From Futiania mangrovi (GTDB lineage Bacteria; Pseudomonadota; Alphaproteobacteria; Futianiales; Futianiaceae), in NCBI RefSeq assembly GCF_024158125.1, contig NZ_JAMZFT010000001.1, forward strand, positions 620,001 to 684,000: a DNA stretch of 64,000 nucleotides. The letters are read 5' to 3'. The first letter of the stretch is position 1. Every line of letters starts with the position of its first letter. The notes under the pieces are model-generated. The model saw nothing but the letters and a program-made list of their open reading frames with translations, searched no databases and was not told where the DNA came from. Position numbers and translations under genes: made by a program. Positions 20,277-38,948 of this stretch are shown here, in pieces.

Positions 20277-20370
20277 CTGCCGCTTCTCCCGCCTGTCGGG
20301 TCTTTTGTATCGGGCTCCCAGCAATTAGGCTCTGCCGCGCCCGATGACCAGTCTCAAGGCACATGCATCC

Positions 20371-21024: not shown

Positions 21025-21086
21025 CCTGCCGGAGGCGCGCCCCATGCGTCTTTCCGTTCGCCCCGCCGCGGACTAGGTTTGTCGCC

Positions 21087-21608
21087 ATGACGACGACACC
21101 GCGCTATCTGCCGCGCACGATCCGGCTCGATACCTCCGACCTGCACGCCTTCCCGTCGGCGGCGGAGGAGGGGGAGTGGGCGGTTTCCGGCGCCTTTGCC
21201 TTCGCCGACGCGGACCCGGAGGAGATCGTGGGCGCCTGGGCGCAGGCCTTCCGCAACGGCCTCCTCGGGACGGAGAGCTTCGGCTGGTCGACTTTTGCCG
21301 CCGTCGCCCTCATCGATCCGCTGGAGGCCGAGCAGGTCGTAACCCGTCTCGCCCGCCATTTCGTCGAGGTCTACGGTGCGCCTACGCTCGCCCAGGCGCT
21401 GCCCGTCGCGCGCGAGGAGGTGGCGTTCGCCGCGAGCCTGTGCGACGGCCACCCCGCGGGCACGCTCATCACGGTCGAGCGGTCCATGGACGACACCGGC
21501 GTGCGGGAGCATTTCCGCACCGTGAAGGACAGCCGCGGCGAGATGCACGCTGCGATCTGGGAGATATCCCCCGACATCGACCTCGACAAGGAGGATACCG
21601 GGACATGA
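21087..21608 (+). CDS. FDH-linked protein of unknown function (DUF6505-like)
   Basis: This 173-residue soluble protein begins YLPRTIRLDTSDLHAFPSAAEEGEWAVSGAFAF and has GFGWST-like aromatic patches, but no catalytic motif or membrane segment. It resembles DUF6505 proteins, which recur next to formate dehydrogenase genes in alphaproteobacteria. Its stop overlaps the next ATG, so the two are translationally coupled. The family name is from memory of the locus pattern. Confidence 0.75.
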   Translation: MTTTPRYLPRTIRLDTSDLHAFPSAAEEGEWAVSGAFAFADADPEEIVGAWAQAFRNGLLGTESFGWSTFAAVALIDPLEAEQVVTRLARHFVEVYGAPTLAQALPVAREEVAFAASLCDGHPAGTLITVERSMDDTGVREHFRTVKDSRGEMHAAIWEISPDIDLDKEDTGT

Positions 21609-22621: not shown

Positions 22622-22651
22622 CCCGGACTTGAGAACGAGGGAGCTTTTCCG

Positions 22652-22840
22652 ATGAACGACGAAGCCTTGAACATGAGCGTGCGCAAGTTCCTGAAGAAGG
22701 TCGGCGTGACCTCGCAGGCGAAGATCGAGGAGGCGGTGCGCGCGGCCTCCGGCGAGGGGCCGTTCGAGGCGACGATGACGCTGGAAATTCCCGCGCTCGG
22801 CCTCAAGCACACGATCGACGGTTCGATCGAGACGAAATGA
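22652..22840 (+). CDS. Small FDH-linked protein (DUF6494-like)
   Basis: The 62-residue protein reads NDEALNMSVRKFLKKVGVT near its start and ends with a beta-rich ALGLKHTIDGSIETK. It is the size and pattern of DUF6494, another constant companion of alphaproteobacterial formate dehydrogenase loci. It is cytoplasmic by prediction with no known function. It has 30 bases to the upstream gene and 13 to the next, so it is in the same operon. Confidence 0.75.
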   Translation: MNDEALNMSVRKFLKKVGVTSQAKIEEAVRAASGEGPFEATMTLEIPALGLKHTIDGSIETK

Positions 22841-22853
22841 AGGAGCGGAGGCG

Positions 22854-23141
22854 ATGACGCAGCCTTCCGGCATCGACGGCTGGCGCGGCAAGGCGGCGGC
22901 GTTCGCCGTGCTGCTCGCGGCCGTCGGCGGCATCGTCTACATCAACCGCGAGGTCCTTTTTCCGGGCCTCGTGGAGGTTCCGGTCTCGCCCCAGGACGCG
23001 GCCTTCGCCGCCTGCTTGGAGGCCCGCACCGCGCAGATCGACCAGCTTGTCGCCGACGGCATGATGGACGCCGCGCGCGCCGCCAATGCGAAGGAGCGTC
23101 TGGCCCCCGTCTGCCAGGCGCAGGTGGACGCGGCGAACTGA
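22854..23141 (+). CDS. Small membrane-anchored hypothetical protein
   Basis: The 95-residue protein has one N-terminal transmembrane helix (residues about 12-30, AAFAVLLAAVGGIVYI) and a periplasmic tail with two cysteines (FAACLEAR and APVCQAQ) spaced about 48 residues apart. A clean AAGGAGCGGAGG precedes the ATG. No family is recognised. It ends the five-gene block of FDH-linked unknowns. Confidence 0.7.
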   Translation: MTQPSGIDGWRGKAAAFAVLLAAVGGIVYINREVLFPGLVEVPVSPQDAAFAACLEARTAQIDQLVADGMMDAARAANAKERLAPVCQAQVDAAN

Positions 23142-23236
23142 GGCGGCCCGGCCACACGTTCATTGCCTGGAAACCCTGTCTGCGCTAGTCTCGCCGGCAT
23201 GACGACGTTCTGGACCCCGGCGCGGCGAATTACGGG

Positions 23237-23259
23237 CCCGGCTTCCTCTGGGAGCCGGG
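23237..23259 (+). other. Leader hairpin before the ACT-like gene
   Basis: Arms 23237-23246 and 23251-23259 pair over nine base pairs with one bulge around a four-base loop. It lies in the 160-base gap between two genes, 43 bases before an ATG. No U-tract follows; it could affect transcript stability or act as a weak terminator. No riboswitch consensus was recognised. Confidence 0.35.
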
Positions 23260-23301
23260 AAGCAACCCGTTTCGCCAACACACTGCCGGGAGAAGACCGT
23301 C

Positions 23302-23613
23302 ATGACCGCGCGCACCGCGACTGAAGTTTCCACTTCAACCCTTTATTGTTTCGAACTTTCCTTCGATGCCGTTCCGGGCTCTCTGGAGCGCGTGCTGGGG
23401 GAGTTCTCCAAGCGCGACATGGTGCCCGTGCGCCTCGGCACGCGCCCTGTCGCGCTCGAGGGCCCGGGCGATTGCGCCCTGGGGCTCGAGGTCTGGGTGG
23501 ACACCCGCGACGCCCACACCGCCGACGTGATCGCCGCGAAGCTTCAGGTGATGCCGCACATGCGCACCGTGACGCTGGCCCGCGTGGCGGGCAGCGTACA
23601 GGCGGCGGCCTGA
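23302..23613 (+). CDS. Small ACT-domain-like protein
   Basis: The 103-residue protein has an ACT-like pattern: a beta strand (YCFELSFDAVPGSLERVLGEFSKRD), the ACT-typical PGxLxRVL loop, and a C-terminal AAKLQVMPHMRTVTLARV. ACT domains bind small ligands or act as regulatory dimers. It has its own ribosome-binding site (GGGAGAAG) and converges on the polyferredoxin gene. The role is unknown; the fold call is by motif only. Confidence 0.65.
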   Translation: MTARTATEVSTSTLYCFELSFDAVPGSLERVLGEFSKRDMVPVRLGTRPVALEGPGDCALGLEVWVDTRDAHTADVIAAKLQVMPHMRTVTLARVAGSVQAAA

Positions 23614-23617
23614 GCGG

Positions 23618-25660
23618 TCAGGTCTCCCCCCCGCCGCCCTTCTTCGCCGCCTCGTCGCGTTCGCGCAGATCGTCTTCGGTCGTGCGCACGCGCGGGCGCG
23701 CGCCCGCCGCATAGGGATCGACGGCGGTTTCCATCTGCGCGATCACCCGGCAGTCGTCGCACATCTGCATGATGCGGATGCGCGCCTCGTCCTGGAACAT
23801 CGGGTGCTTGCCCGCGAGCAGGGAGACGATGCGCTCCACCGAGGACTTCACGCCGAAGTCCTTGCCGCAGCGGACGCAGGCGAAGGGCTCCTCCTCCTTG
23901 AGGATGCGCGGCTCGGCGGCCTCCGCCAGGAAGGAGAGGCGCGGGGTGAGCGAGATCACCTTCTCCGGGCACGTCGCCTCGCAGAGGCCGCACTGGATGC
24001 ACAACTCCTCCGTGAAGCGCAGCTGCGGCCGGTCCGGATTGTCGGTGATCGCCGCGGTCGGGCACGCGCCGACGCAGGAGAGGCAGAGCGTGCAGCCCTC
24101 CACGTCCACCTCGATCGTGCCGAAGGGCGCGCCCTCGGGCAGCGCCACCATGTCCGGCGTTTCCGGCGCATGGGTGCGCAGATGGCGCAAGGCGAGGCGC
24201 TGCAGCCCCCGCCGGTCGCCGCGCGGCAAATGCTTCGCTGGCGTCGCGACGCCTTTGCCCGTGGCTGACCACAGCGCGGCCTCCACTGCCTCCGGGTCGG
24301 TTTCGATCAGCATGTGCACCGGGGCGTCGAGGCCCATCGCGCCCCGCACCGCCTCCGCGATCTCTGCCTGCAGTGAAAGTCCCGCCGTCTCGTCGGCGTG
24401 CTTGGGGTCCGGCAGCAGCGTGATCCCGGCCGCGCCGTAGGACAGCGCCGAGACCAGCACGTCGAGGCCGATCTGGGTAACCTCGTTCACTTCCACCGGC
24501 AGGACATGGGCCGGGAGCCCGCGCCCGAAGCGAGCGATCATCGCCACCATCTCCGCCCCGTGGCGGCCGTCGTGGAACAGGAGGTGCGGCGTCTTTCCGC
24601 CTGCTTTCGCATAGGTGTCGAGCAGTATCCTCACCTGGTCTATGAGGTCGGAGGGGCGCGGCACGGCATAGGTCGCGGCGCCGGTGGGGCAGACCGAATT
24701 GCAGGCCCCGCAGCCGCCGCAGATCGCCGGGTCGATCGCCACGGTGTCGCCCGCGGGCGCGATGGCGGCGGCCGGGCAGACGTCCAGGCAGCGCGTGCAG
24801 CCCGTCTTGCCGCTGCGCGAATGGGCGCAGATGTCGCCCTGGTAGCGGACATAGAGCGGTTTCTCGAAGCTGCCGGTGAGCGCGCTCGCGTCAAACAGCG
24901 CGCGCGCCACCGCGCCCGGGTCGCGGGGATCGGCGCGCAGGTAGCCGTCGCGCCGTTCGTGCCCGCTCACCAGTGGCGCACCCCCCGTCATGTCGAGCAC
25001 GACGTCGAAGTCGAGGGTCGTCTGCGCCGGTCCCACGTCGAACGCCAGCGCCTCCCGGCTGGAGACGCGCATGGGCGCGAGGTTGCGCACGTCCGCCGTG
25101 AAGGCGCCGAGGTGCCCGCGCACGCCCGTCACCTTGCCCCTGAAGATCGCGACGCGGCTGCGGACCGGCGGGACGAGGCCCTCGGCCTCGGTCAGGATAA
25201 GCGAGACGGCCATGCTTGCCGACAGCCGCTCGGCGGCGTCGAGTGCGGCCTGACCCGCGCCGTGGACGAGGATCTGCCCCTCGCTCTCCAGCGTTATCGT
25301 GCCCGCGGGCTCGGCGCCGGCGGCGGCCTGCGCCATGGCGATCAGGGCGGCGATCTTCGGCCCGGAATTCGCTGCGTCCTCGCCCCAGCCTGCGGCCTCG
25401 CGGATGTTGAAGAAGGCAAGCTCGGCGGACGTTTCCAGTTCCTCCGCCACCTCGGCGAACAGCGGCGCTTCCTGCGTGCAGGCGACGCAGACGCGCCCAC
25501 CCGCGGCGGCCGCTTGCTCGAACACGTCGAGCTCGGTCCGGCAGAGCTGCCGGTGGATGCCGGTTCCCTCCGCGCCCAGCGTGCGCGCCAGCATCTCCCC
25601 GTCGATCTGCATCGTCCGTTCGCAATTGCAGACGAGTATCGTGTCGTTGCCGCGCTTCAT
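23618..25660 (-). CDS. HdrA-like polyferredoxin of the FDH locus
   Basis: The 680-residue protein starts with five cysteines (C11, C13, C40, C58, C61) in the spacing of the N-terminal cluster domain of HdrA; RVCVACTQEAPLF resembles the HdrA AxCSPRTHExxF loop. A degenerate Rossmann-like segment (ILVHGAGQAALDAAERL) follows. Then come two bacterial-ferredoxin pairs of CxxCxxC(x3)CP clusters, around residues 290-340 and 530-580. A C-terminal part has CVRCGKDF and MCDDCR. It is a soluble iron-sulfur protein that could move electrons to or from formate dehydrogenase, or take part in its assembly. The start at 25660 follows AAGGA. Confidence 0.82.
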   Translation of the reverse strand: MKRGNDTILVCNCERTMQIDGEMLARTLGAEGTGIHRQLCRTELDVFEQAAAAGGRVCVACTQEAPLFAEVAEELETSAELAFFNIREAAGWGEDAANSGPKIAALIAMAQAAAGAEPAGTITLESEGQILVHGAGQAALDAAERLSASMAVSLILTEAEGLVPPVRSRVAIFRGKVTGVRGHLGAFTADVRNLAPMRVSSREALAFDVGPAQTTLDFDVVLDMTGGAPLVSGHERRDGYLRADPRDPGAVARALFDASALTGSFEKPLYVRYQGDICAHSRSGKTGCTRCLDVCPAAAIAPAGDTVAIDPAICGGCGACNSVCPTGAATYAVPRPSDLIDQVRILLDTYAKAGGKTPHLLFHDGRHGAEMVAMIARFGRGLPAHVLPVEVNEVTQIGLDVLVSALSYGAAGITLLPDPKHADETAGLSLQAEIAEAVRGAMGLDAPVHMLIETDPEAVEAALWSATGKGVATPAKHLPRGDRRGLQRLALRHLRTHAPETPDMVALPEGAPFGTIEVDVEGCTLCLSCVGACPTAAITDNPDRPQLRFTEELCIQCGLCEATCPEKVISLTPRLSFLAEAAEPRILKEEEPFACVRCGKDFGVKSSVERIVSLLAGKHPMFQDEARIRIMQMCDDCRVIAQMETAVDPYAAGARPRVRTTEDDLRERDEAAKKGGGGET

Positions 25661-25835
25661 GCTGATCCTTGCGTCCCTGTCGTGATTCCTGCCGGTCTGA
25701 TGCCCCCAGGAACGGGTAATGTGTCCTTGTGCCGCCGGTCCGGCAAGACGCACGCACGCGCAAGCGCCTGTGCCGCACTGCAGCATTTCCGTTTCCCTCT
25801 TGCCGCGGGGCGCGCGCTCGCTACCGTCTGGTGCC
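25661..25835. other. Divergent intergenic region, no gene seen
   Basis: These 175 bases separate the polyferredoxin gene (minus) from the DUF3305 gene (plus) and must hold both promoters. No CAATCCAA element like that upstream of torD was seen here, and no RNA structure stands out. Confidence 0.4.
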
Positions 25836-26378
25836 ATGAGCCGTGTCCTGACCATTCCTCTCGGCGTCATCGTCGAGCGCCGCCCCGCGAAGAACCCGTG
25901 GGCCGACCATGTGCTGCGCGCGATCGCGGTGACGGAGGATCCGCCGCCGGACCTCGCGCCCTGGACGCTTCTCGTGCGAGAGGGCGAGGTGGAGCGCTAC
26001 CACGCCGGAACCGCGCAGATCGAACTGCATCGCAAGGAGACTGAGGCCTATCTGGAGAACTTTCTCGACGACCGGCCGCAGATCTTCGTCGTCCTGCGCC
26101 GCGACGACGAGGACGACGCATCGCCCTTCGGCTTCCACCTGTTCTGCGTCAGCGCCTCGCCGTTCTATGCGCAGAACCTGATGGATTCGGGCGAGGACAT
26201 CGTGGACCCCGTGCCGATGCCCGCCGCGGTCGCCCAGCGCGTGCGCGCCTTCGTCGACTTCCACCACGTCGAGGAGCCGTTCGCCAAGCGCAAGCGCCGC
26301 AAGGCCGCGGAGCCGGACGAAGTCTTCGCCCGCCCGCCGGGCTGGTCGCCTGCGGGCGGCGATCCCTGGGAGAACTGA
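25836..26378 (+). CDS. DUF3305 domain protein
   Basis: The 180-residue protein has the DUF3305 pattern: TIPLGVIVERRPAKNPWADHVLRA, PWTLLVREGEVERYHAG, LHRKETEAYLENF, PQIFVVLR and VSASPFYAQNLMDSGEDIVDPVPMP. It is predicted soluble, with a basic C-terminal stretch (AKRKRRKAAEP). DUF3305 and DUF3306 are adjacent in many proteobacterial formate dehydrogenase clusters; their biochemical role is unknown. The next gene starts four bases after its stop. Confidence 0.85.
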   Translation: MSRVLTIPLGVIVERRPAKNPWADHVLRAIAVTEDPPPDLAPWTLLVREGEVERYHAGTAQIELHRKETEAYLENFLDDRPQIFVVLRRDDEDDASPFGFHLFCVSASPFYAQNLMDSGEDIVDPVPMPAAVAQRVRAFVDFHHVEEPFAKRKRRKAAEPDEVFARPPGWSPAGGDPWEN

Positions 26379-26382
26379 GCCG

Positions 26383-27066
26383 ATGGCCGCCGAGGACGCA
26401 TCCCGCATGACGCGCGCCGCGCGCCGCCGCCTCGGCCTTGCCGGTGAGGAGGAGGGCAGCTTTCTCGCCCGCTGGTCGCGGCGCAAGGACGCCGCGCGCG
26501 CCGGCGCGCTTGCGGACGACGGTGTGGCCGATCCCGGCGATCTTCCCGCGCACGAAGCCGACGCCGCGCGGGCAGGCGCGCGCGGGGAGGGCAGCAGCGC
26601 CGAGGCAGCCGAACCGGAGATCCGGCCTGAGGATCTGCCCGATCCGGACACGCTGACGGCCCAGTCCGATTTCAGCGTCTTCATGCAGAAGGGCGTACCG
26701 CCCGATCTGCAGCAACGCGCGCTGCGCAAGCTGTGGCTGACCGATCCGACACTCGCGAACCTCGATGGCCTGCTCGACTATGGCGGCGATTTCAGCCAGG
26801 TCGGCAAGGCCAAGATGGCGATCAAGACCGCGTGGCAGGTGGGCAAGGGGTATCTCGCCGCGTTGGACGCCGGGGAGACGGCGAAGGCGGCCGCCGGCGA
26901 GGGCGGCGCGGATGCCGGACCGGACCGGGAGGCGGTCGCGGCGGCGGACGGCGTTACGGAATCGCCGCAAACGCATGGGGCCCCCGAATCTCCCGCGGAA
27001 GATGCGGCCGAAGTGGACGGCCGGGACGCTTCGGACGATACCCGCCCGCCGTCAGCACGCGCCTGA
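26383..27066 (+). CDS. DUF3306 domain protein
   Basis: The 227-residue protein carries the DUF3306 core: FLARWSRRKDAAR near residue 27, then DPDTLTAQSDFSVFMQKGVPPDLQQRALRKLWL (residues about 87-120) and LDGLLDYGGDF. The flanks are low-complexity, rich in Ala, Gly, Asp and Glu, and probably disordered. It follows DUF3305 in an operon. The role in formate dehydrogenase biogenesis is inferred from context. Confidence 0.85.
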   Translation: MAAEDASRMTRAARRRLGLAGEEEGSFLARWSRRKDAARAGALADDGVADPGDLPAHEADAARAGARGEGSSAEAAEPEIRPEDLPDPDTLTAQSDFSVFMQKGVPPDLQQRALRKLWLTDPTLANLDGLLDYGGDFSQVGKAKMAIKTAWQVGKGYLAALDAGETAKAAAGEGGADAGPDREAVAAADGVTESPQTHGAPESPAEDAAEVDGRDASDDTRPPSARA

Positions 27067-27339: not shown

Positions 27340-28026
27340 ATGTTTCGCGTGGTGGGAACGGCAGGAACCGGGCAGGCAGCGGCGATTCCGGCGGACACAC
27401 AGGACGAGGATTTCCTGCGCGCCCAGCAGTACCGGTTCCTAGCGCGCTGGCTCGCCGCGCCGCCGGACCGGGCGTTGCTCGACCTGACGGCGCAGCTTTC
27501 CGGCGACGGATCGGAGCTTGGGCAGGCGCTGTCGGAACTCGCCGCCGTCGCGGCGGAGGCCGACCCTGCGGCGGCCGACGACGAATTTCACGACCTCTTC
27601 GTCGGGATCGGGCGGGGCGAACTCGTCCCGCACGCCTCCTATTACATCACGGGCTTCCTGAACGAGAAGCCGCTGGCGACGCTCCGGCAGCACCTGGCGA
27701 GCCTCGGCATCGCGCGTGCGGAGGGCAACCGCACGCCGGAGGATCACATTTCCGCGCTGTGCGACGTCATGGCGGGTCTCATCACGGGCGAGTTCGGGGA
27801 GGTCAGCACGACGCGCGCGCCGGGTGTGGCGGCGACGGCCAGGGGACCGGAGCCCGAGACGCTCGGACCGCAGAGCGCGTTCTTCAATGCACATCTCGCC
27901 CCATGGGCGGGGCGTTTCTTTTCCGACCTGGAGCGGGCGAAGGCCGCACGGGTCTATCGCGGGATCGGCGCGGTCGGCCGGATCTTCATGGAGATCGAGG
28001 AGGCCGCTTTCGAGATGACTGCCTGA
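27340..28026 (+). CDS. TorD/DmsD-family molecular chaperone for formate dehydrogenase
   Basis: The 228-residue all-helical protein contains the TorD-type motif FHDLFVGIGRGELVPHASYYITGFLNEKPL (residues about 83-112) and EDHISALCDVMAGLI. Such chaperones bind the Tat signal of molybdoenzymes until the cofactor is inserted. It is the first gene of the FDH structural operon. The ATG at 27340 sits too close to GGAAGGG; GTG at 27349 has better spacing and may be the real start. Confidence 0.87.
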   Translation: MFRVVGTAGTGQAAAIPADTQDEDFLRAQQYRFLARWLAAPPDRALLDLTAQLSGDGSELGQALSELAAVAAEADPAAADDEFHDLFVGIGRGELVPHASYYITGFLNEKPLATLRQHLASLGIARAEGNRTPEDHISALCDVMAGLITGEFGEVSTTRAPGVAATARGPEPETLGPQSAFFNAHLAPWAGRFFSDLERAKAARVYRGIGAVGRIFMEIEEAAFEMTA

Positions 28027-28106: not shown

Positions 28107-28307
28107 ATGAGTGACAAGGACGGCACGTCCGGCGGCATCGCGCGCCGCGACCTGCTGAAACTCGGCACGCTTGGGGCCGTGGCGGCGGGTGCCGCCACCG
28201 CGCTGGGCAGCGTTCAGGCCGGCGCCGCGGAGACGGCCCCCGCGAAAGGGGCGGGCTACCGCGAGACGGGCCACGTCAAGACGTTCTACGACCTCGCCCG
28301 CTTCTGA
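28107..28307 (+). CDS. Small Tat-targeted FDH-region protein
   Basis: The 66-residue protein has a twin-arginine-type signal (IARRDLLKLGTLGAVAAGAATAL) and a short tail ending YRETGHVKTFYDLARF. It matches the 'formate dehydrogenase region TAT target' family, always just before the FDH catalytic gene; the function is unknown. A strong GGAGGAGG precedes the ATG. Confidence 0.87.
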   Translation: MSDKDGTSGGIARRDLLKLGTLGAVAAGAATALGSVQAGAAETAPAKGAGYRETGHVKTFYDLARF

Positions 28308-28376: not shown

Positions 28377-31262
28377 ATGCTCAAGCGGAAAGCGGCAGGC
28401 GGGGTTGCGGGACGCCCCCGGCTGGCGAAGGCCCTGGCAGGGCTCGGTGGTGGCGCGATCGACCGGCGGACGTTCCTCCGGCGCTCGGGCCTGACGGCGA
28501 TGGGTGTCACCGCGGCGGCGACGCTGGGCGGTGGCATGGTGACGAAGGCTGGCGCGCAGAGCGCGGGTGCCGCCGGCGAGGTCAGGAAGGTCAAGTCGGT
28601 CTGCACGCACTGCTCGGTCGGCTGCACGGTCGTTGCCGAGGTGCAGAACGGCGTCTGGGTCGGGCAGGAGCCCGGCTTCGACTCGCCCTTCAACCTCGGT
28701 GCGCATTGCGCCAAGGGCGCCTCGGTGCGTGAGCACGCGCACGGCGAGCGCCGCCTGAAGTCGCCGATGAAGCTTGTCGACGGCAAGTGGAAGAAGATCT
28801 CGTGGGACGAGGCGGTCAACGAGATCGGCGACAAGATGATGCAGATCCGGGAGGAGTCGGGGCCCGATTCCGTCTACTGGCTCGGATCGGCGAAGCACAA
28901 CAACGAGCAGGCCTACCTGTTCCGCAAGTTCGCGGCCTATTGGGGCACGAACAACGTGGATCACCAGGCGCGGATCTGCCACTCCACCACGGTCGCGGGT
29001 GTTGCGAACACCTGGGGCTACGGTGCGATGACCAACTCCTACAACGACATCCACAACAGCCGGGCGATCTTCCTGATCGGCGGCAACCCGGCCGAGGCGC
29101 ACCCGGTTTCCCTCCTCCACCTGCTGAAGGCGAAGGAACAGAACAACGCGCCGCTCATCGTCTGCGACCCGCGCTTCACGCGCACGGCCGCGCACGCGTC
29201 GGAGTACGTGCGCTTCCGCCCGGGCGCGGACGTGGCGCTGATCTGGGGCATCCTCTGGCACGTCTTCCAGAACGGCTGGGAAGACACCCAGTACATCAAG
29301 GAGCGGGTGTGGGGCCTCGACCAGGTGAAGGCCGAGGTGGCGAAGTGGACGCCAGAGGAGGTCGAGCGGGTGACCGGCGTGCCGGAAAGCCAGGTGAAGC
29401 GCGTCGCGCGCACGCTGGCCAACAACCGGCCGTTCACGATCATCTGGTGCATGGGCGGGACCCAGCACACGATCGGCAACAACTTCACCCGCGCCTATTG
29501 CGCGCTGGGCCTCGCGCTCGGCACGATCGGCAAGCCGGGTGGCGGCGCCAACATCTTCCGCGGCCATGACAATGTGCAGGGTGCGACCGATCTCGGCGTG
29601 CTCAGCCACACGCTGCCGGGCTACTACGGCCTCGCGGCGGGCTCGTGGAAGCACTGGGCGCGCGTCTGGGAGACCGACTACGATTACCTCCTCGGCCGCT
29701 TCGGATCGAAGGAACTGATGGAGTCGTCGGGCATCCCCGTGAGCCGCTGGTTCGACGGCGTGCTCGAGGACAAGGAGAACATGGACCAGCCCGAGAAGGT
29801 GCGGGCCATGGTCTTCTGGGGTCACGCGCCGAACTCGCAGACCCGCCTTCCGGACATGCAGAAGGCGATGAAGCAGCTCGACATGCTGGTCGTCATCGAT
29901 CCGTTCCCGACCATGACCGCGGTCATGCACGACCGGACCGACGGCGTCTACCTGCTGCCGGCGACGACGCAGTTCGAGACCTACGGGTCCGTGACCGCGT
30001 CGAACCGTTCGCTGCAGTGGCGCGAGAAGGTGATCGATCCGCTCTTCGAATCGAAAGTGGACCACGAGATCATCTATCTCTTCGCCAAGAAGTTCGGTTT
30101 CGCCGACGAGATGTTCAAGAACATCAAGGTCGAGGGGGCCGAGCCGGTGATCGAGGACGTGACGCGGGAATTCAACCGCGGCATGTGGACGGTCGGCTAC
30201 ACCGGCCAGTCGCCGGAGCGTCTGAAGCTGCACATGGCCAACCAGCACACCTTCGACCGCACGACGCTGCGGGCGAACGGCGGGCCGGCCGACGGCGACT
30301 TCTACGGTCTGCCCTGGCCGTGCTGGGGCACGGCGGAGATGGGACATCCCGGAAGCGCCGTCCTCTACAACACCGATCTCCCGGTGGCAGAGGGCGGCAT
30401 GGGCTTCCGGGCCCGCTTCGGGGTCGAGCGCAATGGCGAGAACCTGCTCGCCGAGGGCTCCTACCCGGTCGGCTCGGAGATCCAGGACGGCTATCCCGAG
30501 TTCACCTACGGCATGCTGAAGAAGCTGGGCTGGGAAGGCGATCTCACCGACGAGGAGCGAGCGACCATCCTCAAGATCGGCGGGGACAAGCCGGACGGCG
30601 TCAACTGGAAGACCGACCTGTCGGGCGGCATCCAGCGCGTCGCGATCAAGCACGGCTGCGCGCCCTACGGCAACGCCAAGGCGCGGACGGTGGTCTGGAA
30701 CTTCCCGGACCCGGTGCCCGTGCACCGCGAGCCGCTCTACACCTCGCGGCGCGACCTCGTGGCCGACTATCCGACCTACGAGGATACCAAGGCCTACCGC
30801 CTGCCGACGCTCTATGCGTCGATCCAGGAGAAGGACGTGTCGAAGGAGTTCCCGATCATCCTCACCTCCGGCCGACTGGTCGAGTACGAGGGCGGCGGCG
30901 ACGAGACGCGCTCCAACCCCTGGCTCGCCGAGCTGCAGCAGGACATGTTCGTCGAGATCAACCCGCGCGATGCCAACAACCTCGGCATCCAGGACGGGAA
31001 CATGGTCTGGGTGTACGGACCGGAAGGCGGCAAGGTGCGCGTCAAGGCCATGGTGACCGAGCGGGTGGGGACGGGCGTCGCGTTCATGCCCTTCCACTTC
31101 GGCGGCCACTTCCAGGGCGAGGATCTGCGGTCAAAATACCCCGCCGGTGCCGACCCCTACGTGCTGGGCGAGGCGAGCAACACCGCCCAGACCTATGGCT
31201 ACGACTCGGTGACACAGATGCAGGAGACCAAGTGCACGCTCTGCCGGATCGAGCGGGCGTGA
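28377..31262 (+). CDS. Formate dehydrogenase catalytic (alpha) subunit, Cys-type, Tat-exported
   Basis: The 961-residue molybdopterin oxidoreductase oxidises formate to CO2. A Tat signal (DRRTFLRRSGLTAMG, R30-R31) is followed by the [4Fe-4S] site C76-x2-C79-x3-C83-x27-C111. The active-site motif QARICHSTT has Cys201 where E. coli FdnG has selenocysteine, with the conserved His202. Other family signatures include GGNPAEAHPV, RGHDNVQGATDLG and the C-terminal molydopterin-dinucleotide binding segment around LTSGRLVEYEGGGDETRSNPW. The start at 28377 follows GGAGGACAGGAAAG. Length is close to FdnG (about 1015). Confidence 0.95.
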   Translation: MLKRKAAGGVAGRPRLAKALAGLGGGAIDRRTFLRRSGLTAMGVTAAATLGGGMVTKAGAQSAGAAGEVRKVKSVCTHCSVGCTVVAEVQNGVWVGQEPGFDSPFNLGAHCAKGASVREHAHGERRLKSPMKLVDGKWKKISWDEAVNEIGDKMMQIREESGPDSVYWLGSAKHNNEQAYLFRKFAAYWGTNNVDHQARICHSTTVAGVANTWGYGAMTNSYNDIHNSRAIFLIGGNPAEAHPVSLLHLLKAKEQNNAPLIVCDPRFTRTAAHASEYVRFRPGADVALIWGILWHVFQNGWEDTQYIKERVWGLDQVKAEVAKWTPEEVERVTGVPESQVKRVARTLANNRPFTIIWCMGGTQHTIGNNFTRAYCALGLALGTIGKPGGGANIFRGHDNVQGATDLGVLSHTLPGYYGLAAGSWKHWARVWETDYDYLLGRFGSKELMESSGIPVSRWFDGVLEDKENMDQPEKVRAMVFWGHAPNSQTRLPDMQKAMKQLDMLVVIDPFPTMTAVMHDRTDGVYLLPATTQFETYGSVTASNRSLQWREKVIDPLFESKVDHEIIYLFAKKFGFADEMFKNIKVEGAEPVIEDVTREFNRGMWTVGYTGQSPERLKLHMANQHTFDRTTLRANGGPADGDFYGLPWPCWGTAEMGHPGSAVLYNTDLPVAEGGMGFRARFGVERNGENLLAEGSYPVGSEIQDGYPEFTYGMLKKLGWEGDLTDEERATILKIGGDKPDGVNWKTDLSGGIQRVAIKHGCAPYGNAKARTVVWNFPDPVPVHREPLYTSRRDLVADYPTYEDTKAYRLPTLYASIQEKDVSKEFPIILTSGRLVEYEGGGDETRSNPWLAELQQDMFVEINPRDANNLGIQDGNMVWVYGPEGGKVRVKAMVTERVGTGVAFMPFHFGGHFQGEDLRSKYPAGADPYVLGEASNTAQTYGYDSVTQMQETKCTLCRIERA

Positions 31263-31339: not shown

Positions 31340-31936
31340 ATGGCGCGCATGAAGTTCCTGTGCGACGCGGAGCGGTGCATCGAGTGCAATGCCTGCGTGA
31401 CCGCCTGCAAGAACGAGCACGAGGTGCCCTGGGGCATCAACCGTCGCCGCGTGGTGACCATCAACGACGGAAAGCCGGGCGAGCGGTCGATTTCGGTCGC
31501 CTGCATGCACTGCTCGGACGCCCCGTGCATGGCCGTCTGCCCGGTCGACTGCTTCTACCAGACCGAGGAAGGCGTGGTCCTTCATTCCAAGGACCTGTGC
31601 ATCGGCTGCGGCTACTGCTTCTACGCCTGCCCCTTCGGGGCGCCGCAGTACCCGCAGGCCGGCAATTTCGGCAGCCGCGGCAAGATGGACAAGTGCACCT
31701 TCTGCAACGGCGGGCCGGAAGACGACAACAGCTCGGCGGAGTTCCAGAAGTACGGCCGCAACCGCCTGGCCGAGGGCAAGCTGCCGCTGTGCGCGGAGAT
31801 GTGCTCGACCAAGGCGCTGCTCGCCGGTGACGGGGACGTGCTCTCCGACATCTACCGGGAGCGGGTCGTGGCCCGCGGCTTCGGCTCGGGCGCCTGGGGC
31901 TGGGGCACCGCCTACCAGCTCAAGGCGGGCGGCTGA
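31340..31936 (+). CDS. Formate dehydrogenase iron-sulfur (beta) subunit
   Basis: The 198-residue protein has four [4Fe-4S] cluster motifs: CIECNACVTACKNEH, CMHCSDAPCMAVCP, CIGCGYCFYACPFGAPQ, and CTFC with CAEMC. It passes electrons from the alpha subunit to the membrane subunit. It is shorter than E. coli FdnH (294) and lacks the C-terminal membrane anchor, which fits the family seen with separate cytochrome b subunits. No signal peptide, so it probably travels with alpha by the Tat route. Confidence 0.95.
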   Translation: MARMKFLCDAERCIECNACVTACKNEHEVPWGINRRRVVTINDGKPGERSISVACMHCSDAPCMAVCPVDCFYQTEEGVVLHSKDLCIGCGYCFYACPFGAPQYPQAGNFGSRGKMDKCTFCNGGPEDDNSSAEFQKYGRNRLAEGKLPLCAEMCSTKALLAGDGDVLSDIYRERVVARGFGSGAWGWGTAYQLKAGG

Positions 31937-32279: not shown

Positions 32280-32366
32280 CCGGGGCGGCATCCGCTGCCG
32301 CCCATGCGGTCCCCCTTGCCGCCCGCGCCGGAGCTTCCGGGTGGCCTGATCGGAGTTGGAAGAGGC

Positions 32367-33494
32367 ATGACGATGAACCAGCACCGTATTGCGGCGCGCG
32401 TGCGCGTCCTGTTCGCCACGCTGATGCTTGCCGTGGGGCTCGCGCTCGCGCCGGGCGCGGTCCCTGCCCTCGCGCAACAGTCCGCGCCGGTTGCCCCGAC
32501 CGATCCGGCGGGCTCGCTCGGGCCCCTCGGCCAATCGAGCGACACCGACATCTGGCGGGAAATCCGCCGCGGCAACCAGTTTCAGACCCAGGTGCAGAAC
32601 CAGGGCGCGGGCATCATGATCCAGTCCGAGGGCGAGGTCTGGCGCAACTTCCGCAACGGGCCCTTGCCCTATTACGGCGCGTGGGGGCTGTTCGGGATCG
32701 TCGCGCTGCTGGCGGTCTTCTTCCTCATTCGCGGACGCATCAGGATCGACGAGGGCATGTCCGGCCGCACGATCGAGCGGTTCAACACGATCGAGCGGGC
32801 GGCGCACTGGTTGCTCGCCTCGACGTTCATCATCCTGGCGATCACCGGGCTGAACCTGCTCTACGGGCGCTATTTCCTGCCGGGCCTCATTGGCAAGGAG
32901 GCGTTCGCCACGATTTCCATGTGGGGCAAGTACGCCCACAACTATCTCGCCTTCGGCTTCATGCTGGGGCTCGTGATGATCTTCGTGTTGTGGGTGAAGG
33001 ACAACATTCCCGGCTGGACCGACGTGAAATGGTTCCTGAAGGGAGGCGGCATCCTCGGCATGGGGCACCCGGATTCCAGGCGCTTCAACGGCGGCCAGAA
33101 GCTCATCTTCTGGATGGTCGTGCTGGGCGGCGCCTCGCTCAGCATGTCGGGGGTCGCCCTGATGTGGCCGTTCGAGTTCCACTTCTTCGCCGGCACCTTC
33201 GACGCGATCAACGGCATTTTCGGCACCTCGCTGCCGACCGCGCTCGGCCCGATCCAGGAGCAGCAGCTGAACGCCGCCTGGCATGCCATCGTCGGCCTTG
33301 TGATGATCGTGGTCATCATCGCCCACATCTACATCGGGTCGGTCGGCATGGAGGGCGCGTTCGACGCCATGGGTTCCGGCCAGGTCGACATCAACTGGGC
33401 GAAGGAGCATCACAACCTCTGGGTCGAGGACATGGTGCGCAAGGGCCGCGCGGACGCGCCCACCGGCGGCCATGGAACCCAGCCGGCGGAATAG
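32367..33494 (+). CDS. Formate dehydrogenase cytochrome b (gamma) subunit
   Basis: The 375-residue protein has a signal peptide, a periplasmic domain of about 90 residues, an extra helix (ALLAVFFLIRG) and then the cytochrome b561-like FDH-gamma core. That core has ERFNTIERAAHWLLASTFIILAITGL with a haem His, KYAHNYLAFGFML, and WHAIVGLVMIVVIIAHIYIGSVG. It takes electrons from beta and reduces quinone. The N-terminal extension is typical of alphaproteobacterial FDH-gamma. The start follows GGAAGAGG. Confidence 0.93.
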   Translation: MTMNQHRIAARVRVLFATLMLAVGLALAPGAVPALAQQSAPVAPTDPAGSLGPLGQSSDTDIWREIRRGNQFQTQVQNQGAGIMIQSEGEVWRNFRNGPLPYYGAWGLFGIVALLAVFFLIRGRIRIDEGMSGRTIERFNTIERAAHWLLASTFIILAITGLNLLYGRYFLPGLIGKEAFATISMWGKYAHNYLAFGFMLGLVMIFVLWVKDNIPGWTDVKWFLKGGGILGMGHPDSRRFNGGQKLIFWMVVLGGASLSMSGVALMWPFEFHFFAGTFDAINGIFGTSLPTALGPIQEQQLNAAWHAIVGLVMIVVIIAHIYIGSVGMEGAFDAMGSGQVDINWAKEHHNLWVEDMVRKGRADAPTGGHGTQPAE

Positions 33495-33518: not shown

Positions 33519-33920
33519 ATGACACCGATGAAGAGCTTGCGGACCCTGGCATTGGTTGCTCTTGCGTCGGCGGCGCTCGGCGCCGGGGCGGCGCTGGCGC
33601 TGACGGCGGAGGACGTGCGCACCCGGATCGAGGCGCAGTTCCCCCAGGTGGAGGTTCTGCGCGTCGTGGACGCCGAGACGAGCGAAGGCCGCCCGGCCTT
33701 CCTCGTCACGGTGATGAACCGGGGCGGCACCTACAACGGCGCCTTCCAGGTGACGCGCGTGCTGATCGACCGCGAGACGGGCAGCATGACGCGCATCTAT
33801 GCCCAGGGGCCGAGCGGCGTACCCGTCGGGGAGCCTCTCTCCGGTCCAGGCGCGGCGACGGAAGGGTTCGGGGAGAACCTGCGCACGCGAAGCTTCACGC
33901 CGATTCCCGGCCGTCCATGA
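33519..33920 (+). CDS. Exported PepSY-like protein
   Basis: The 133-residue protein has a signal peptide (cleavage near ALALTAEDV). A PepSY-like mature domain follows (AEDVRTRIEAQFPQVEVLRVVDAETSEGRPAFLVTVMN), with a second strand-rich part (FQVTRVLIDRETGSMTRIY). It is probably periplasmic. Its stop overlaps the start of the WD40-cytochrome c gene, so the two are made together. ATG at 33528 is an alternative start. Confidence 0.75.
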   Translation: MTPMKSLRTLALVALASAALGAGAALALTAEDVRTRIEAQFPQVEVLRVVDAETSEGRPAFLVTVMNRGGTYNGAFQVTRVLIDRETGSMTRIYAQGPSGVPVGEPLSGPGAATEGFGENLRTRSFTPIPGRP

Positions 33921-35335
33921 CCGCTGGACGGGCGCTTTCGCGGCTTGGCGCGGCGCTTGCGCGTGTCCTGCTTGCGGCGGCGCTCTGTGCGGGCGCTCTG
34001 CCGGCGGCGGCGGCGCTGCTGGGGCATGGAGGGCCGGTGCAGGCGGTCGACGTTTCCGCCGACGGGCGCCATGCGTTGACCGGCGGATTCGACTACACCG
34101 TCATTCTCTGGGACCTCGAGAGCCAGGTGCCCGTGCGCATCCTCACCGGCCACGACGGCGGCGTGAGCGCGGTGCGCTTCGTGCCCGGCAGCACGCTTCG
34201 CGGGGTCAGCGCGGGCGACGACGGCGACGTGATCCTCTGGGACCTGCACGCAGGCCGGATTCTGCACCGGATGAAGGGGCACGCGCTTCGCGCCGTGGAG
34301 CTTGCGGTCTCCCCGGACGGCCGCCTTGCCGCGTCTGCAGGGTGGGACGGGACCGTGCGGGTCTGGGATCTGGAGACCGGCACCGCGCGCCACGTCTTCG
34401 AGACGCGCGCGAACCGCATCAACACCGTTGCCTTCGCGGGCGGGGGCACGCAGGTGCTGGCAGGCGACGAGGCAGGCCAGCTTCTCGTCTGGTCGGTCGG
34501 GACGGGCGAGGCGATGCGGCCCCTGCGCGTCCACGACTTCGTGGTCAACGCGCTCGACGTCGCGGACCCGGCGGCCGCCTCCACGACGGTCGCCACGGCC
34601 AGCGTCGACCGCACCATGCGGCTGTGGTCGTGGCCCGCGCGCGAGGAACTGGTCAGCATCGAGCTGCACGACGCCGCCGTGCTCGCGCTGGCAATATCGG
34701 ACGACGGGACGCTGCTCGCCTCGAGCGGTGCGGACGGCGCCATCCGGCTCTGGTCGATCCCCGACGGCCGTCCCGCGGGCACGCTGACGGGTCATGCCGG
34801 CGCCGTCTTCGCGCTGGCCTTCGCGCCCGGAGGTCGCCTGCTGTCGGCGGGCCGCGACGAGAGCGTGCGCGTCTGGAGCCTCGCCGGCGGGACCGAGATC
34901 GCGCCTGCCGGGGCCACGAACATCCCGGCGCCCGAGACGGTGGCCGACATGACTGAGGCGGAGAAGCGCGGCCAGTGGGAGTTCCGCAAGTGCCGCATCT
35001 GCCATTCGATCACGGCGGAGGGGGAGAACCGGGCAGGGCCCACGCTCTATGGCATCGTCGGGCGCGTGGCGGGGACCGTGCCCGGCTACGACTACTCGCC
35101 CGCGCTCACCGGTACCGGCATCGTCTGGACGCCGGACATGATCGCGCGCCTTTTCGCGGACGGGCCGGACCGGGTGACGCCCGGCTCCAAGATGCCCTTG
35201 CAAAAACTGTCGAGCCCGCAGGCGCGGGACGACCTCATCGCCTATATCGAGAAAGTGACGGCGCCGAAGCCCGGCGTGCCCGTGCCCGGGCAAATGGCGG
35301 ATGCGCCCCCGGCTGGACAAGGAGCGAAGCAATGA
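33917..35335 (+). CDS. Seven-bladed WD40 propeller fused to cytochrome c
   Basis: The 472-residue exported protein has a signal peptide (residues 1 to about 33), seven WD40 repeats and a class I cytochrome c domain. The repeats end VILWDLES, VILWDLHA, VRVWDLET, LLVWSVGT, MRLWSWPA, IRLWSIPD and VRVWSLAG, enough for a closed propeller. The haem site is C359-R-I-C362-H363 (CRICH), with Met426 in GSKMP as the likely axial ligand. It could dock to the periplasmic FDH or another donor and carry electrons. Translational coupling on both sides (ATGA overlaps) places it in the FDH operon. Confidence 0.88.
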   Translation: MTAGRALSRLGAALARVLLAAALCAGALPAAAALLGHGGPVQAVDVSADGRHALTGGFDYTVILWDLESQVPVRILTGHDGGVSAVRFVPGSTLRGVSAGDDGDVILWDLHAGRILHRMKGHALRAVELAVSPDGRLAASAGWDGTVRVWDLETGTARHVFETRANRINTVAFAGGGTQVLAGDEAGQLLVWSVGTGEAMRPLRVHDFVVNALDVADPAAASTTVATASVDRTMRLWSWPAREELVSIELHDAAVLALAISDDGTLLASSGADGAIRLWSIPDGRPAGTLTGHAGAVFALAFAPGGRLLSAGRDESVRVWSLAGGTEIAPAGATNIPAPETVADMTEAEKRGQWEFRKCRICHSITAEGENRAGPTLYGIVGRVAGTVPGYDYSPALTGTGIVWTPDMIARLFADGPDRVTPGSKMPLQKLSSPQARDDLIAYIEKVTAPKPGVPVPGQMADAPPAGQGAKQ

Positions 35336-35454
35336 AAGCGTTTCTGATCGGCATAGGCCTGGCCATCGTCGTCGGCGTGGGCGCGTGGTACGCGCTGGAG
35401 CAGATGCCCTGGGACAGCGCGACCGCGACCAGCAGCGAGAACGTCCGGCTCTGA
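35332..35454 (+). CDS. 40-residue single-helix membrane peptide
   Basis: A short frame starts with ATG overlapping the stop of the WD40-cytochrome c gene and is preceded by AAGGAG. It begins MKAFLIGIGLAIVVGVGAWY, one transmembrane helix, and ends EQMPWDSATATSSENVRL. The coupling and ribosome-binding site make it very likely to be translated. No family is recognised. Confidence 0.65.
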   Translation: MKAFLIGIGLAIVVGVGAWYALEQMPWDSATATSSENVRL

Positions 35455-35477: not shown

Positions 35478-36611
35478 TCAGTCCATCACGATCCGCGGGG
35501 CGGCGCGTGCCTGTCCGCGGTCGAGTTTCGCCGCCACCTTCTCCGCGATCGCCATGTAGGCCGCGGCCTGGGGGCCGTCCGGATCGGTCATCACGATCGG
35601 CAGGCCCTCGTCCGAGGTTTCGCGCACGCGGATGTCGAGCGGCACCTCTCCCAGGAAGTCCATGCCCATCTTCTCCGCCGTGCGCCGTGCGCCGCCGTGA
35701 CCGAAGATGTGGCTCTCGTGGCCGCAGTTCGGGCAGACGAAGGTGGACATGTTCTCCACCAGCCCGAATACCGGCACATCCACCTTGCGGAACATGTTGA
35801 GGCCCTTGCGCGCATCGAGCAGCGCGATGTCCTGCGGCGTCGACACGATGACGGAGCCTGCGAGCGGCACCCGCTGCGCCATGGTGAGCTGCGCATCGCC
35901 CGTGCCGGGCGGCATGTCGACGATCAGCACGTCGAGGTCGCCCCACGCCACGTCGCGCAGCATCTGCTCCAGCGCCGACATGACCATCGGGCCGCGCCAG
36001 ATCATCGGCGTGTCCTCGTCGACGAGGAAGCCCATGGACATGGCCTTCACGCCGAACGCCTCCATCGGGTTGAGCGTGCGCCCGTCCGCGCTCGGCTTGC
36101 CCTTGATGCCCAGCATGCGCGGGATCGAGGGGCCGTAGATGTCGGCGTCGAGGATGCCCACCTTCTTGCCGAGGCGTGCGAGCCCCATGGCGAGGTTCAC
36201 CGCCGTCGTCGACTTGCCGACGCCGCCCTTGCCGGACGCGACCGCCACGATGGCCTTGACGCCGGGGGCCAGGATGCGGTTGCCCGCGCCGGCCTCCGCC
36301 GCGCGTGCGCCGGGCGGGGGCGGGGCGGCCTTGCGCGCGCCCGCGGGCGGCGCTGCCTTGTCGCTGTGCGCGGTGAGGACGGCGGAGACCGAGAGCACGC
36401 CCGGCAGCGCCTCGACCGCCTTCGTGCATGCCTGGCGCAGCGGGTCGGCCTTCGGTCCGCGCTCCGGCGCAACCTCGACGGCGAAGCCCACATGGCCGCT
36501 CTTCACGACGAGGCCCGAGATCATGCCCGCGGACACGACGTCCTTGCCGCTCTCCGGGTCGACCACGCGGGCCAGCGCGCCCCTCACCTGATCGGCTGTC
36601 ACTTCGGCCAT
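35478..36611 (-). CDS. Mrp/ApbC/Nbp35-family iron-sulfur carrier ATPase
   Basis: The 377-residue protein has an N-terminal MIP18/DUF59 domain (QVRGALARVVDPESGKDVVSAGMI), a linker rich in Ala/Pro, then the deviant Walker A motif VASGKGGVGKSTTAVNLA, switch motif DADIYGPSIPRMLGI, VDMPPGTGDAQLT, and the CxxC cluster site in FVCPNCGHES. Mrp proteins deliver Fe-S clusters to apoproteins. It converges on the FDH operon, which has a high demand for clusters. Confidence 0.93.
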   Translation of the reverse strand: MAEVTADQVRGALARVVDPESGKDVVSAGMISGLVVKSGHVGFAVEVAPERGPKADPLRQACTKAVEALPGVLSVSAVLTAHSDKAAPPAGARKAAPPPPGARAAEAGAGNRILAPGVKAIVAVASGKGGVGKSTTAVNLAMGLARLGKKVGILDADIYGPSIPRMLGIKGKPSADGRTLNPMEAFGVKAMSMGFLVDEDTPMIWRGPMVMSALEQMLRDVAWGDLDVLIVDMPPGTGDAQLTMAQRVPLAGSVIVSTPQDIALLDARKGLNMFRKVDVPVFGLVENMSTFVCPNCGHESHIFGHGGARRTAEKMGMDFLGEVPLDIRVRETSDEGLPIVMTDPDGPQAAAYMAIAEKVAAKLDRGQARAAPRIVMD

Positions 36612-37152: not shown

Positions 37153-38289
37153 GTGACGTACCAGCCTGGCCCCGACGATCCGGTTCCGCGCGAGATCCTG
37201 TCGCGCATCGTGGATTCGCTGCCCGACGCGATCTTCTTCAAGCGGCCGTCCGGCATCTACACGTTTGCCAACGCCGCCGCGGCGACACTGCTACTCGGGC
37301 GCACGGCCGAGGCGGTCGAGGTCATGGGCGAGACGGATGCGGCACTCGGCGTCGACCCCCGAATCGGGTCGCCGAGTGCCGACCGGTGGCTGACGACCAG
37401 CGACCAGCCCGTGCGCGGCGAGATCGAGGTGTCCGTGAATGGCGTGCCGCGGCGCTATCTCCTCAGCCGCAGCCGCAGCCTCGATGGCGGGGGGCGGATG
37501 CTGGGCATCATCGGGGTTGCGGTGGAGATCACCTCCCTGCGCAGTGCGGAGGAGCGGATGCGCCGGCAGGAGGCGCAGCTTGCGCATGCCGCCCGGCTGT
37601 CGCTGATGGGCGAGATGGCGTCGGGCATGGCGCACGAGCTGAACCAGCCGCTGACTGCCATCCTCAGCTATCTGCCGCCGGTCTTGCGCCGCCTCGACGA
37701 GGGGGGCGCGGACCGCAAGCTGCTTGCCGCACTCGAGGAAATCCGGGCGGAGGCGCGCCGTGCTGCCGACATCCTCGGCCGCCTGCGCGGTTTCGTCCGG
37801 CGGCAGGAGGTGCGGCGGGCGTCGGTCCGCCTGTGCCAGGCGGTCCGCGAGGCGGTGAACTTCGCCAACCACCAGGCGGAGCAGGCGGGCGTGCGCATCG
37901 CCATCGACTTCGAGGAGGGCATGGCCCCCGTCATGGCCGACGAGGTGGAACTCCAGCAGGTGCTGCTCAACCTCGTCTGGAATGCCATCGAGGCGATGGA
38001 GGCCGGAGGCGCGCCGCGCCGCGAGATCCTGATCCTGACCCAGTCCGCCGGCGCGGATACCGCGGAGGTTCTGGTCCGCGACACCGGCCCCGGATTGCCG
38101 CCGGAGGTGCTGGGCCGCCTGTTTGAGCCCTTCTTCACCACCAAGCCCAACGGCATGGGCATGGGGCTTGCCATCTGCCGCTCTATCATGGAAGCCCACG
38201 GTGGACGGCTGACAGCGACCTCCAACTGGGAAGGGGGGGCGACCTTCCGCCTGACCCTGCCTTTCGCGAAGGGAGATACCGGAACATGA
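37153..38289 (+). CDS. Soluble PAS-domain sensor histidine kinase
   Basis: The 378-residue protein uses a GTG start. It has a PAS domain (residues about 15-130) and a kinase core with phospho-acceptor His161 in MASGMAHELNQPLTAI, N box NLVWNAIEAM, G1 VRDTGPGLP, F box FEPFFTTK and G2 GMGMGLAICRSI. There is no membrane segment, so it senses a cytoplasmic signal. The organisation is FixL-like, but no proof of haem binding is seen in the PAS domain. It overlaps the next gene (ATGA). Confidence 0.88.
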   Translation: MTYQPGPDDPVPREILSRIVDSLPDAIFFKRPSGIYTFANAAAATLLLGRTAEAVEVMGETDAALGVDPRIGSPSADRWLTTSDQPVRGEIEVSVNGVPRRYLLSRSRSLDGGGRMLGIIGVAVEITSLRSAEERMRRQEAQLAHAARLSLMGEMASGMAHELNQPLTAILSYLPPVLRRLDEGGADRKLLAALEEIRAEARRAADILGRLRGFVRRQEVRRASVRLCQAVREAVNFANHQAEQAGVRIAIDFEEGMAPVMADEVELQQVLLNLVWNAIEAMEAGGAPRREILILTQSAGADTAEVLVRDTGPGLPPEVLGRLFEPFFTTKPNGMGMGLAICRSIMEAHGGRLTATSNWEGGATFRLTLPFAKGDTGT

Positions 38290-38948
38290 GCGTGCACAAG
38301 GAGACCGGGTCCGGGAGCCATCCGGTGGCGACGCCCCGCGTGGCGATCGTCGACGACGATGCGGCGGTGGTGCGCGCGGTGACCTTCCAGCTCGAGGGAC
38401 ACGGTTATTCGGTTGTCAGCTATCCGAATGCGGAGGCCTTCCTGCAGGATGCCGCGGCGCAGCTCGAATGTGCGCTGGTCGACGTGCGGATGCCCGGCAT
38501 GACCGGGCTGCAGCTCCAGGCGGCGCTCGCCAGCCAGCGGCCTGACCTGCCGCTCGTCTTCATGACCGGTCACGGCGATGTCGAGATCGCGGTCCAGGCG
38601 ATGAAGGCCGGGGCCGTCGACTTCATCGAGAAGCCGTTCGAGGAGGCGGCGCTGCTCGCCGCGCTGGAACGTGCCGTGGAACGCGGGCGCGAGGCGCACG
38701 CGGCCGCGAGGCTGCGCGAGGAGATCGCCGCGCGCCATGCAACCCTCACCCATCGGGAACGGCAGGTCATGGCGCTCGTCGTCGAGGGCCAGTCGAACAA
38801 GATGATCGCGCGCACGCTCGACATCTCGCCGCGCACGGTCGAGGTCTACCGCGCGCGCGTCATGGAAAAGATGGAAGCGCAGAGCCTCGCGGAACTCGTC
38901 CGCCTGTCGCTCGGCGCCAATCTCGAAGAGGGTGTGGACGAGGCATGA
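38286..38948 (+). CDS. FixJ-like response regulator
   Basis: The 220-residue protein has a receiver domain with acidic pocket VDDDAA, phospho-acceptor Asp66 in LVDVRMPG, T/S switch MTGHGD and conserved lysine in IEKPF, and a LuxR/FixJ-type helix-turn-helix (LTHRERQVMALVVEGQSNKMIARTLDISPRTVEVYRARVMEKM, located at residues about 157-199). It is the partner of the upstream kinase. Its stop overlaps the next gene, so the demethylase-like protein is co-translated. Confidence 0.92.
   Translation: MSVHKETGSGSHPVATPRVAIVDDDAAVVRAVTFQLEGHGYSVVSYPNAEAFLQDAAAQLECALVDVRMPGMTGLQLQAALASQRPDLPLVFMTGHGDVEIAVQAMKAGAVDFIEKPFEEAALLAALERAVERGREAHAAARLREEIAARHATLTHRERQVMALVVEGQSNKMIARTLDISPRTVEVYRARVMEKMEAQSLAELVRLSLGANLEEGVDEA

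Follow-up and report, generated by a model that had tools for sequence, protein, structure and literature searches.

The window, a 64,000-nucleotide stretch of Futiania mangrovi DNA (assembly GCF_024158125.1, contig NZ_JAMZFT010000001.1, positions 620,001 to 684,000), encodes a 472-aa protein in which a signal peptide, a seven-bladed WD40 propeller, a linker and a class I cytochrome c domain are combined in a single polypeptide (33917..35335, + strand). Within the class to which the organism belongs this fusion is strongly linked to FDH3-type formate dehydrogenases (FDHs), and we hold this link with high confidence. As to its function, we judge the chances to be about evenly balanced that it is an accessory electron-exit module of this periplasmic enzyme, a proposal in which the docking, the electron transfer, its direction and the final acceptor are all predicted.

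Domain architecture of the WD40-cytochrome c fusion

The frame at 33917-35335 is free of stops throughout, and its translation begins with what was judged by eye to be a Sec-type signal peptide, on the strength of which the protein is predicted to be exported. At either end 4 nt (ATGA) are shared with an adjacent ORF, the start with the stop of the preceding one (33519-33920) and the stop with the start of the following one (35332-35454), bearing out the coupling to the genes on both sides proposed in a sequence-only reading of this DNA. Profile searches returned 171.6 bits for Pfam WD40 (cut-off 27), and an AlphaFold2 model computed from an input of 6 sequences (mean pLDDT 80.6, pTM 0.71) contains strands enough for seven blades in residues 33-327. 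The propeller was delineated from this secondary structure and Foldseek as residues 33-331 (34013..34909, + strand); its model resembles solved WD40 propellers, with a TM of 0.94 on the target in the case of 5yzv. The WD repeats of the earlier reading are recovered by the profile and their number of seven by the model, and the by-eye signal peptide, the seven blades and the haem site do lie on a single 472-aa frame as it had claimed.

In its seven-bladed WD40 fold the protein is similar to other bacterial WD40 propellers, such as the WD40 domain of PkwA (5yzv), but it differs from the latter in being exported, to judge from the by-eye signal peptide, and in possessing a terminal haem c domain. 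The cd1 nitrite reductases and the quinohaemoprotein alcohol dehydrogenases likewise unite a propeller with a cytochrome c domain in one periplasmic protein, their propellers carrying haem d1 or PQQ at the active site. In contrast, the propeller in the window is a plain WD40 domain according to both Pfam and Foldseek, and for this reason a catalytic propeller of the haem d1 or PQQ type was set aside.

The propeller is followed by an unconserved linker (residues 332-349; 34910..34963, + strand), which was delimited by conservation and pLDDT, the latter dropping below 50 at residues 332-342. Beyond it lies a helical C-terminal domain that was predicted with lower confidence than the propeller in the full-length model. 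It is recognizable as a class I cytochrome c domain (residues 350-449; 34964..35263, + strand) from its match to PF00034 (Cytochrom_C; 27.9 bits, cut-off 21.3), from Foldseek and from sequence matches in the PDB, where the nearest solved structures are 2yk3 and 1hro. A separate model of this domain, with a mean pLDDT of only 75.0, has 1hro as its best Foldseek match (TM 0.78) and resembles cytochrome c2 and mitochondrial cytochrome c. Sequence and model together thus provide the N-terminal CXXCH, the C-terminal Met, the fold and the PF00034 match of class I cytochromes c; the score against the NCBIfam family of cytochrome c-550 CycA (NF043008) is 59.8 bits, below its cut-off of 240. The predicted haem c attachment site is a CRICH motif at residues 359-363 (C359-x-x-C362-H363; 34991..35005, + strand), and Met426 (35192..35194, + strand) is the predicted second axial haem ligand. 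Both sites, which had been singled out from this one protein, are kept in 37/37 aligned fused homologues, across which C359, C362, H363, M426, P427 and Q429 are invariant, the last three as part of a [KR]MPxQ signature. The soluble class I cytochrome c2 of Rhodopila globiformis (1hro) shares the fold, the CXXCH and the Met ligand region, but in the window protein the Met ligand lies within [KR]MPxQ and the cytochrome is fused to a propeller.

Measured as the mean top-residue frequency across the 37 fused copies, conservation is highest in the cytochrome domain (0.63), with blade 1 next (0.58), and lowest in blades 5 and 6 (0.41 and 0.45, respectively) and the linker (0.19). In WD40 domains the residues preceding the structural Asp face the top of the propeller and often bind partners; at these positions in blades 1-3, F58 is found in 100%, D101 in 73% and W143 in 97% of the 37 fused copies. 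As regards docking, the net charge of the cytochrome domain was not clearly informative. Identity to relatives is 29-46% for the fusion protein as against 52-84% for FdhA, a fast divergence that would be odd for a tight core subunit.

The FDH3 operon and its flanking genes

The molybdopterin subunit FdhA (28377..31262, + strand; start ATG at 28377 placed by eye) has 9vap_A as its closest solved chain (1417 bits). It scores 480.9 bits against TIGR01591 (Fdh-alpha), below the cut-off of 666.25 though still of formate dehydrogenase type, and it is therefore identified as the FDH alpha subunit through its match to 9vap_A. FdhB, the FDH3-type iron-sulphur subunit (31340..31936, + strand), scores 347 bits against NF038355 (FDH3_beta; cut-off 240) and 333 bits against 9vap_B, while FdhC, the cytochrome b gamma subunit (32304..33494, + strand), scores 139.6 bits against TIGR01583 (cut-off 115.85). 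With FdhB and FdhC above their curated cut-offs the operon is of the FDH3 type, and these scores, along with the 9vap matches of FdhA and FdhB, place on firm ground the FDH operon setting that had been read from the sequence. PDB 9vap is SoFdhAB of Shewanella oneidensis, which the sections of the source considered here describe as FdhA and FdhB only (PMC13397495). The similarity of the window to this enzyme lies in the matches of FdhA and FdhB to chains A and B; however, when the WD40-cytochrome protein was compared with the PDB its best 60 matches included no 9vap chain, and the sole PDB match of FdhC is 1kqf_C, with none in 9vap.

The alignment of FdhC with E. coli FdnI (1kqf_C) shows the retention of four histidines and an N-x-G-Q segment, which we take to be the haem and quinone-site residues of FdnI. 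The same alignment was inspected for a loss of the quinone site in FdhC, which would have proved a new exit, and showed none. Since the haem histidines and quinone-site residues are kept, quinone reduction by FdhC probably persists, and the fusion need not be the main electron route.

Between FdhC and the fusion gene lies an ORF for a small predicted-exported protein of 133 aa (33519..33920, + strand), which has no Pfam match and belongs to no known family; related ORFs occur in several other FDH3 clusters. The fusion gene is followed by an ORF coding for a conserved 40-aa one-helix membrane microprotein with VRL at its end (35332..35454, + strand), and Ser-rich relatives of ~40 aa with MKAF, a single hydrophobic helix and a terminal VRL are found at L005, L047, L060, L093 and other loci. 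Such microprotein-like ORFs come after 29 of 43 fusion copies, compared with 4 of 860 random places; they stay after the fusion gene where it is inverted (L093, L096) and come after FdhC in loci devoid of the fusion gene (L087, L090).

Upstream of FdhA are found an FdhX-like small TAT-signal protein of 66 aa, matched in other clusters by tblastn (28107..28307, + strand), a TorD/NarJ-family chaperone (27340..28026, + strand; PF02613, 103 bits), a DUF3306 protein (26383..27066, + strand), a DUF3305 protein (25719..26378, + strand) and a large 4Fe-4S ferredoxin-type protein of the FDH3 cluster (23618..25870, - strand). The region 20344-27066, upstream of the FDH genes, contains BPL-like, DUF6505, DUF6352, DUF3305 and DUF3306 genes, all of which are also present in the FDH3 cluster of S. 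meliloti. On the other side of the fusion gene is a gene for an ApbC/Mrp iron-sulphur carrier (35478..36611, - strand; NF008669, over cut-off), which is shared by some other FDH3 clusters (L090, L008, L153). Just downstream of the FDH3 cluster, at 37153-38948, a FixL-like sensor kinase is followed by a response-regulator-like ORF. Operons of the type dmsD-fdhGHI with DUF3305/DUF3306 are on record (PMC4464133), and the terms 'WD40', 'WD-40' and 'cytochrome c' are absent from the main text of that article.

This neighborhood bears on two explanations other than electron exit. The propeller might be a scaffold for maturing or anchoring exported FdhAB(C), with the haem serving to report or assist the redox state while the complex is put together, and not to conduct catalytic current. 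Scaffolding is a typical function of WD40 proteins, and many genes of the cluster (TorD family, DUF3305/3306, ApbC/Mrp, BPL-like) are likely to act in biogenesis; but such a role sits poorly with the invariance of the haem ligands, including the Met, in 37/37 copies and with a cytochrome domain more conserved than any blade, and we regard it as unlikely. Still less probable, in our estimation, is a redox sensor or regulator, wherein the cytochrome would sense the periplasmic redox state and the propeller would tune FDH3 activity or docking: the unconserved linker and the kinase and response-regulator-like ORF downstream in this window speak for it, but the fusion protein is devoid of a sensor output domain and its cytochrome is of the ordinary class I, c2-like type.

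Distribution and evolutionary history of the module

When 385 genomes from the class of the window organism were queried with the fusion protein (E ≤ 1e-40) and with the FDH3 beta family (E ≤ 1e-60), the fusion was recovered in 43/385, FDH3 beta in 55/385 and both in 41 (Fisher p ~1e-40, relatedness being ignored). In each of the 2/43 fusion genomes without FDH3 beta the fusion is on a broken contig: in one (G227) the contig starts inside the FDH cluster, with FdhC and then the WD40-cytochrome gene, and in the other (G007) the fusion lies on a 10.4-kb contig fragment. Homologues are thus not widespread without FDH; the opposite distribution is what the sequence-only reading had named as counting against itself. 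The fusion gene is in or adjoins FDH3 cluster genes at 40/44 places: 30/44 share the strand of FdhB and lie at most 5 kb downstream of it, 3/44 are convergent within 3.5 kb, 4/44 lie ~12-13 kb off in the same cluster, and 3/44 are on contigs with other FDH3 cluster genes (G001, G156, G227). The fusion and FDH3 are far apart in two genomes (85 kb in G035 and 253 kb in G347), and no linkage was seen on two short contigs (G025:C198 and that of G007). A further possibility is that the protein is a periplasmic cytochrome of general use, with other enzymes also among its partners and no more than a shared operon connecting it to FDH3; this would suit its distant placement in two genomes and its absence from some FDH3 genomes, but it is hard to reconcile with there being essentially no copies without FDH3 (2/43, both on broken contigs), and we consider it highly improbable.

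A weaker search (E up to 1e-5) of 19 genomes for further copies or remains revealed separate genes on another contig in G225, a WD40 gene only in G228 (on another contig) and G044 (inside the cluster), and, likewise inside the cluster, a divergent copy in G302 and a degenerate one in G358. The last of these (L095, 6817-7488) is a short WD40-cytochrome copy without CXXCH beside an intact FDH3 cluster, and might reflect either decay or an assembly error. At the same threshold G074, G363, G285, G051, G153 and G367 yielded no module-like match, the hits being confined to other cytochromes c and a single weak stretch of WD40; the WD40 matches of G147 and G312 lay in larger or unrelated frames, and G063 (68% complete) had no match. 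The membrane subunit may vary as well, and a loss of FdhC with the module retained was considered. In G001 (L068 8034-10248, L067) FdhB is followed by a 125-aa lipoprotein-like ORF and the WD40-cytochrome gene with no FdhC between, the assembly breaking inside FdhB, and the sole TIGR01583 match of this genome adjoins a NarI-like and a cysteine-rich iron-sulphur protein. In G312 (L108 4449-7752) the ORFs after FdhA-FdhB were judged by eye to be HybA-like and NrfD-like, and FdhC is missing there; this genome (86% complete) has no TIGR01583 match and its WD40 matches are weak and partial. It is possible that in this case the membrane module was swapped, with HybA/NrfD-like proteins in the place of FdhC.

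In a sample of 398 genomes of the phylum, partly overlapping the class sample, FDH3 beta was present in 61, 29 of which are from the window's class and 32 from other classes. The A1 profile (E up to 1e-40) was positive in 48/398 genomes, 22 of which have both domains, and these full fusions are all in the window's class (22/22) and all accompanied by FDH3 (22/22). The other 26/48 are propeller-part matches, mostly in long frames and with no FDH3 beta; the idea that WD40-cytochrome fusions are generally spread beyond FDH was hence set aside. Conversely, an FDH3 subunit would be expected wherever FDH3 is, and this is not true of the fusion: it is present in full in 22/29 FDH3 genomes of the class, 7/29 being without it, and in 0/32 FDH3 genomes of other classes with the A1 profile. 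In 20 FDH3 loci from other classes (19/32 genomes) FdhA, FdhB and FdhC are present, but neither a WD40 match nor a credible cytochrome c gene was seen within ~18 kb, the lone CXXCH candidate being unlike a cytochrome. The fusion is not a general FDH3 component but is specific to one class, and the fact that the FDH3 of other classes manages without it further weakens the case for a scaffold. The named relatives are all from Alphaproteobacteria (Rhodovibrionaceae, Hyphomicrobiales, Ruegeria, Sinorhizobium, Salipiger, Sulfitobacter, Alloyangia and Methylobacterium); in the PLSDB table the Salipiger one is annotated as 'c-type cytochrome' and lies immediately 3' of FdhC, and that of S. meliloti is annotated as 'hypothetical protein' and lies at the far end of the cluster.

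In several loci (L053, L054, L070, L079, L080, L083, L106 and contig L165) a WD40 gene and a small cytochrome c gene are adjacent on opposite strands, and in three more (L059, L073, L164) no cytochrome was found adjoining the WD40 gene, which lends some weight to the scaffold explanation. The [KR]MPxQ signature at the Met ligand is present in 37/37 fused copies and in 4/8 separate cytochromes (L053, L054, L083, L165), missing in the remaining separate ones (L070, L079, L080, L106), and seen in 0/14 other cytochromes c chosen as next-best matches. In a cytochrome tree computed by a quick method (59 sequences, 103 columns; one duplicate paralogue row, L004, dropped) all fused copies group together (SH-aLRT 99), as do the fused copies with the four signature-bearing separate cytochromes (98), and the four signature-less separate cytochromes fall outside with weak support (83-84). 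In a propeller tree of 48 sequences, where the named outgroup does not form one side of a branch, the fused copies lie on one side of a branch (90) versus the separate and WD40-only ones. The simplest reading of these trees is one fusion event from a two-gene form, with the root resting on the chosen outgroup. An FdhA tree of 59 rows, from which clusters truncated at the end of a contig (L065, L101 and L108 among them) and the near-copy L006 were excluded, calls for at least 12 changes of arrangement with four states and 14 with five, suggesting that the module was often gained, lost or moved while FDH3 stayed.

A putative second electron exit of FDH3

The invariant haem ligands, the signal peptide, the tie to one enzyme and the presence of a propeller either fused to or adjacent to the cytochrome are together best read as an electron carrier brought to the enzyme by a docking domain. 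The docking-plus-electron-transfer unit proposed earlier is in keeping with the separate propeller and cytochrome genes seen elsewhere and with the invariance of the haem ligands; as a feature universal to FDH3 it does not stand (0/32 in other classes). Further, as FdhC looks complete, the cytochrome c would be an extra exit and not a replacement of quinone reduction. The exported WD40 propeller might dock on FdhAB(C), perhaps via the conserved face of blades 1-3, with the flexible linker keeping the class I, c2-like cytochrome c near the enzyme. The cytochrome could then take electrons from the iron-sulphur chain of FdhB or the haem b of FdhC and pass them on to the pool of periplasmic cytochrome c and to its oxidases. 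Quinone would continue to be reduced by FdhC, resulting in an enzyme with two exits in which the cytochrome is a branch. That such a two-exit FDH arose by the propeller first recruiting the cytochrome as a soluble protein of its own, which was then tethered covalently on a single occasion, is a scenario we put forward more tentatively. Several observations count against an electron exit, namely the normal look of the aligned quinone route of FdhC, the occurrence of FDH3 elsewhere without the module, the fast divergence, the two distant placements, the WD40-only genes and the L095 copy devoid of the haem motif.

A partial parallel is offered by the FdhABC3 of SRB, a periplasmic FDH with a dedicated tetrahaem cytochrome c subunit for electron transfer (PMC13397495). 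Both have a dedicated c-type cytochrome on a periplasmic FDH; but the SRB enzyme, as portrayed in the same sections of that source, has a tetrahaem cytochrome and no membrane subunit, whereas the cytochrome here has one haem, is c2-like and propeller-fused, and is encoded beside a cytochrome b subunit. No account of FDH3 having a WD40-cytochrome c partner emerged from a literature search that covered few subscription journals. While WD40 domains, cytochromes c, FDH3 and the cytochrome c subunits of other FDHs are already known, the pairing of a WD40-cytochrome c protein with FDH3 is probably undescribed.

The FDH3 enzymes matter for formate respiration and C1 metabolism, and interest in them includes CO2 reduction on electrodes by way of the oxygen-tolerant Shewanella relative (PMC13397495). 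If the above proposal is true, and this class often possesses a tethered cytochrome c for FDH3, the quinone-only picture of the enzyme would be incomplete there, and the module would be a ready handle with which to wire FDH3. The separate and fused forms offer a natural series on how a propeller recruits an electron carrier.
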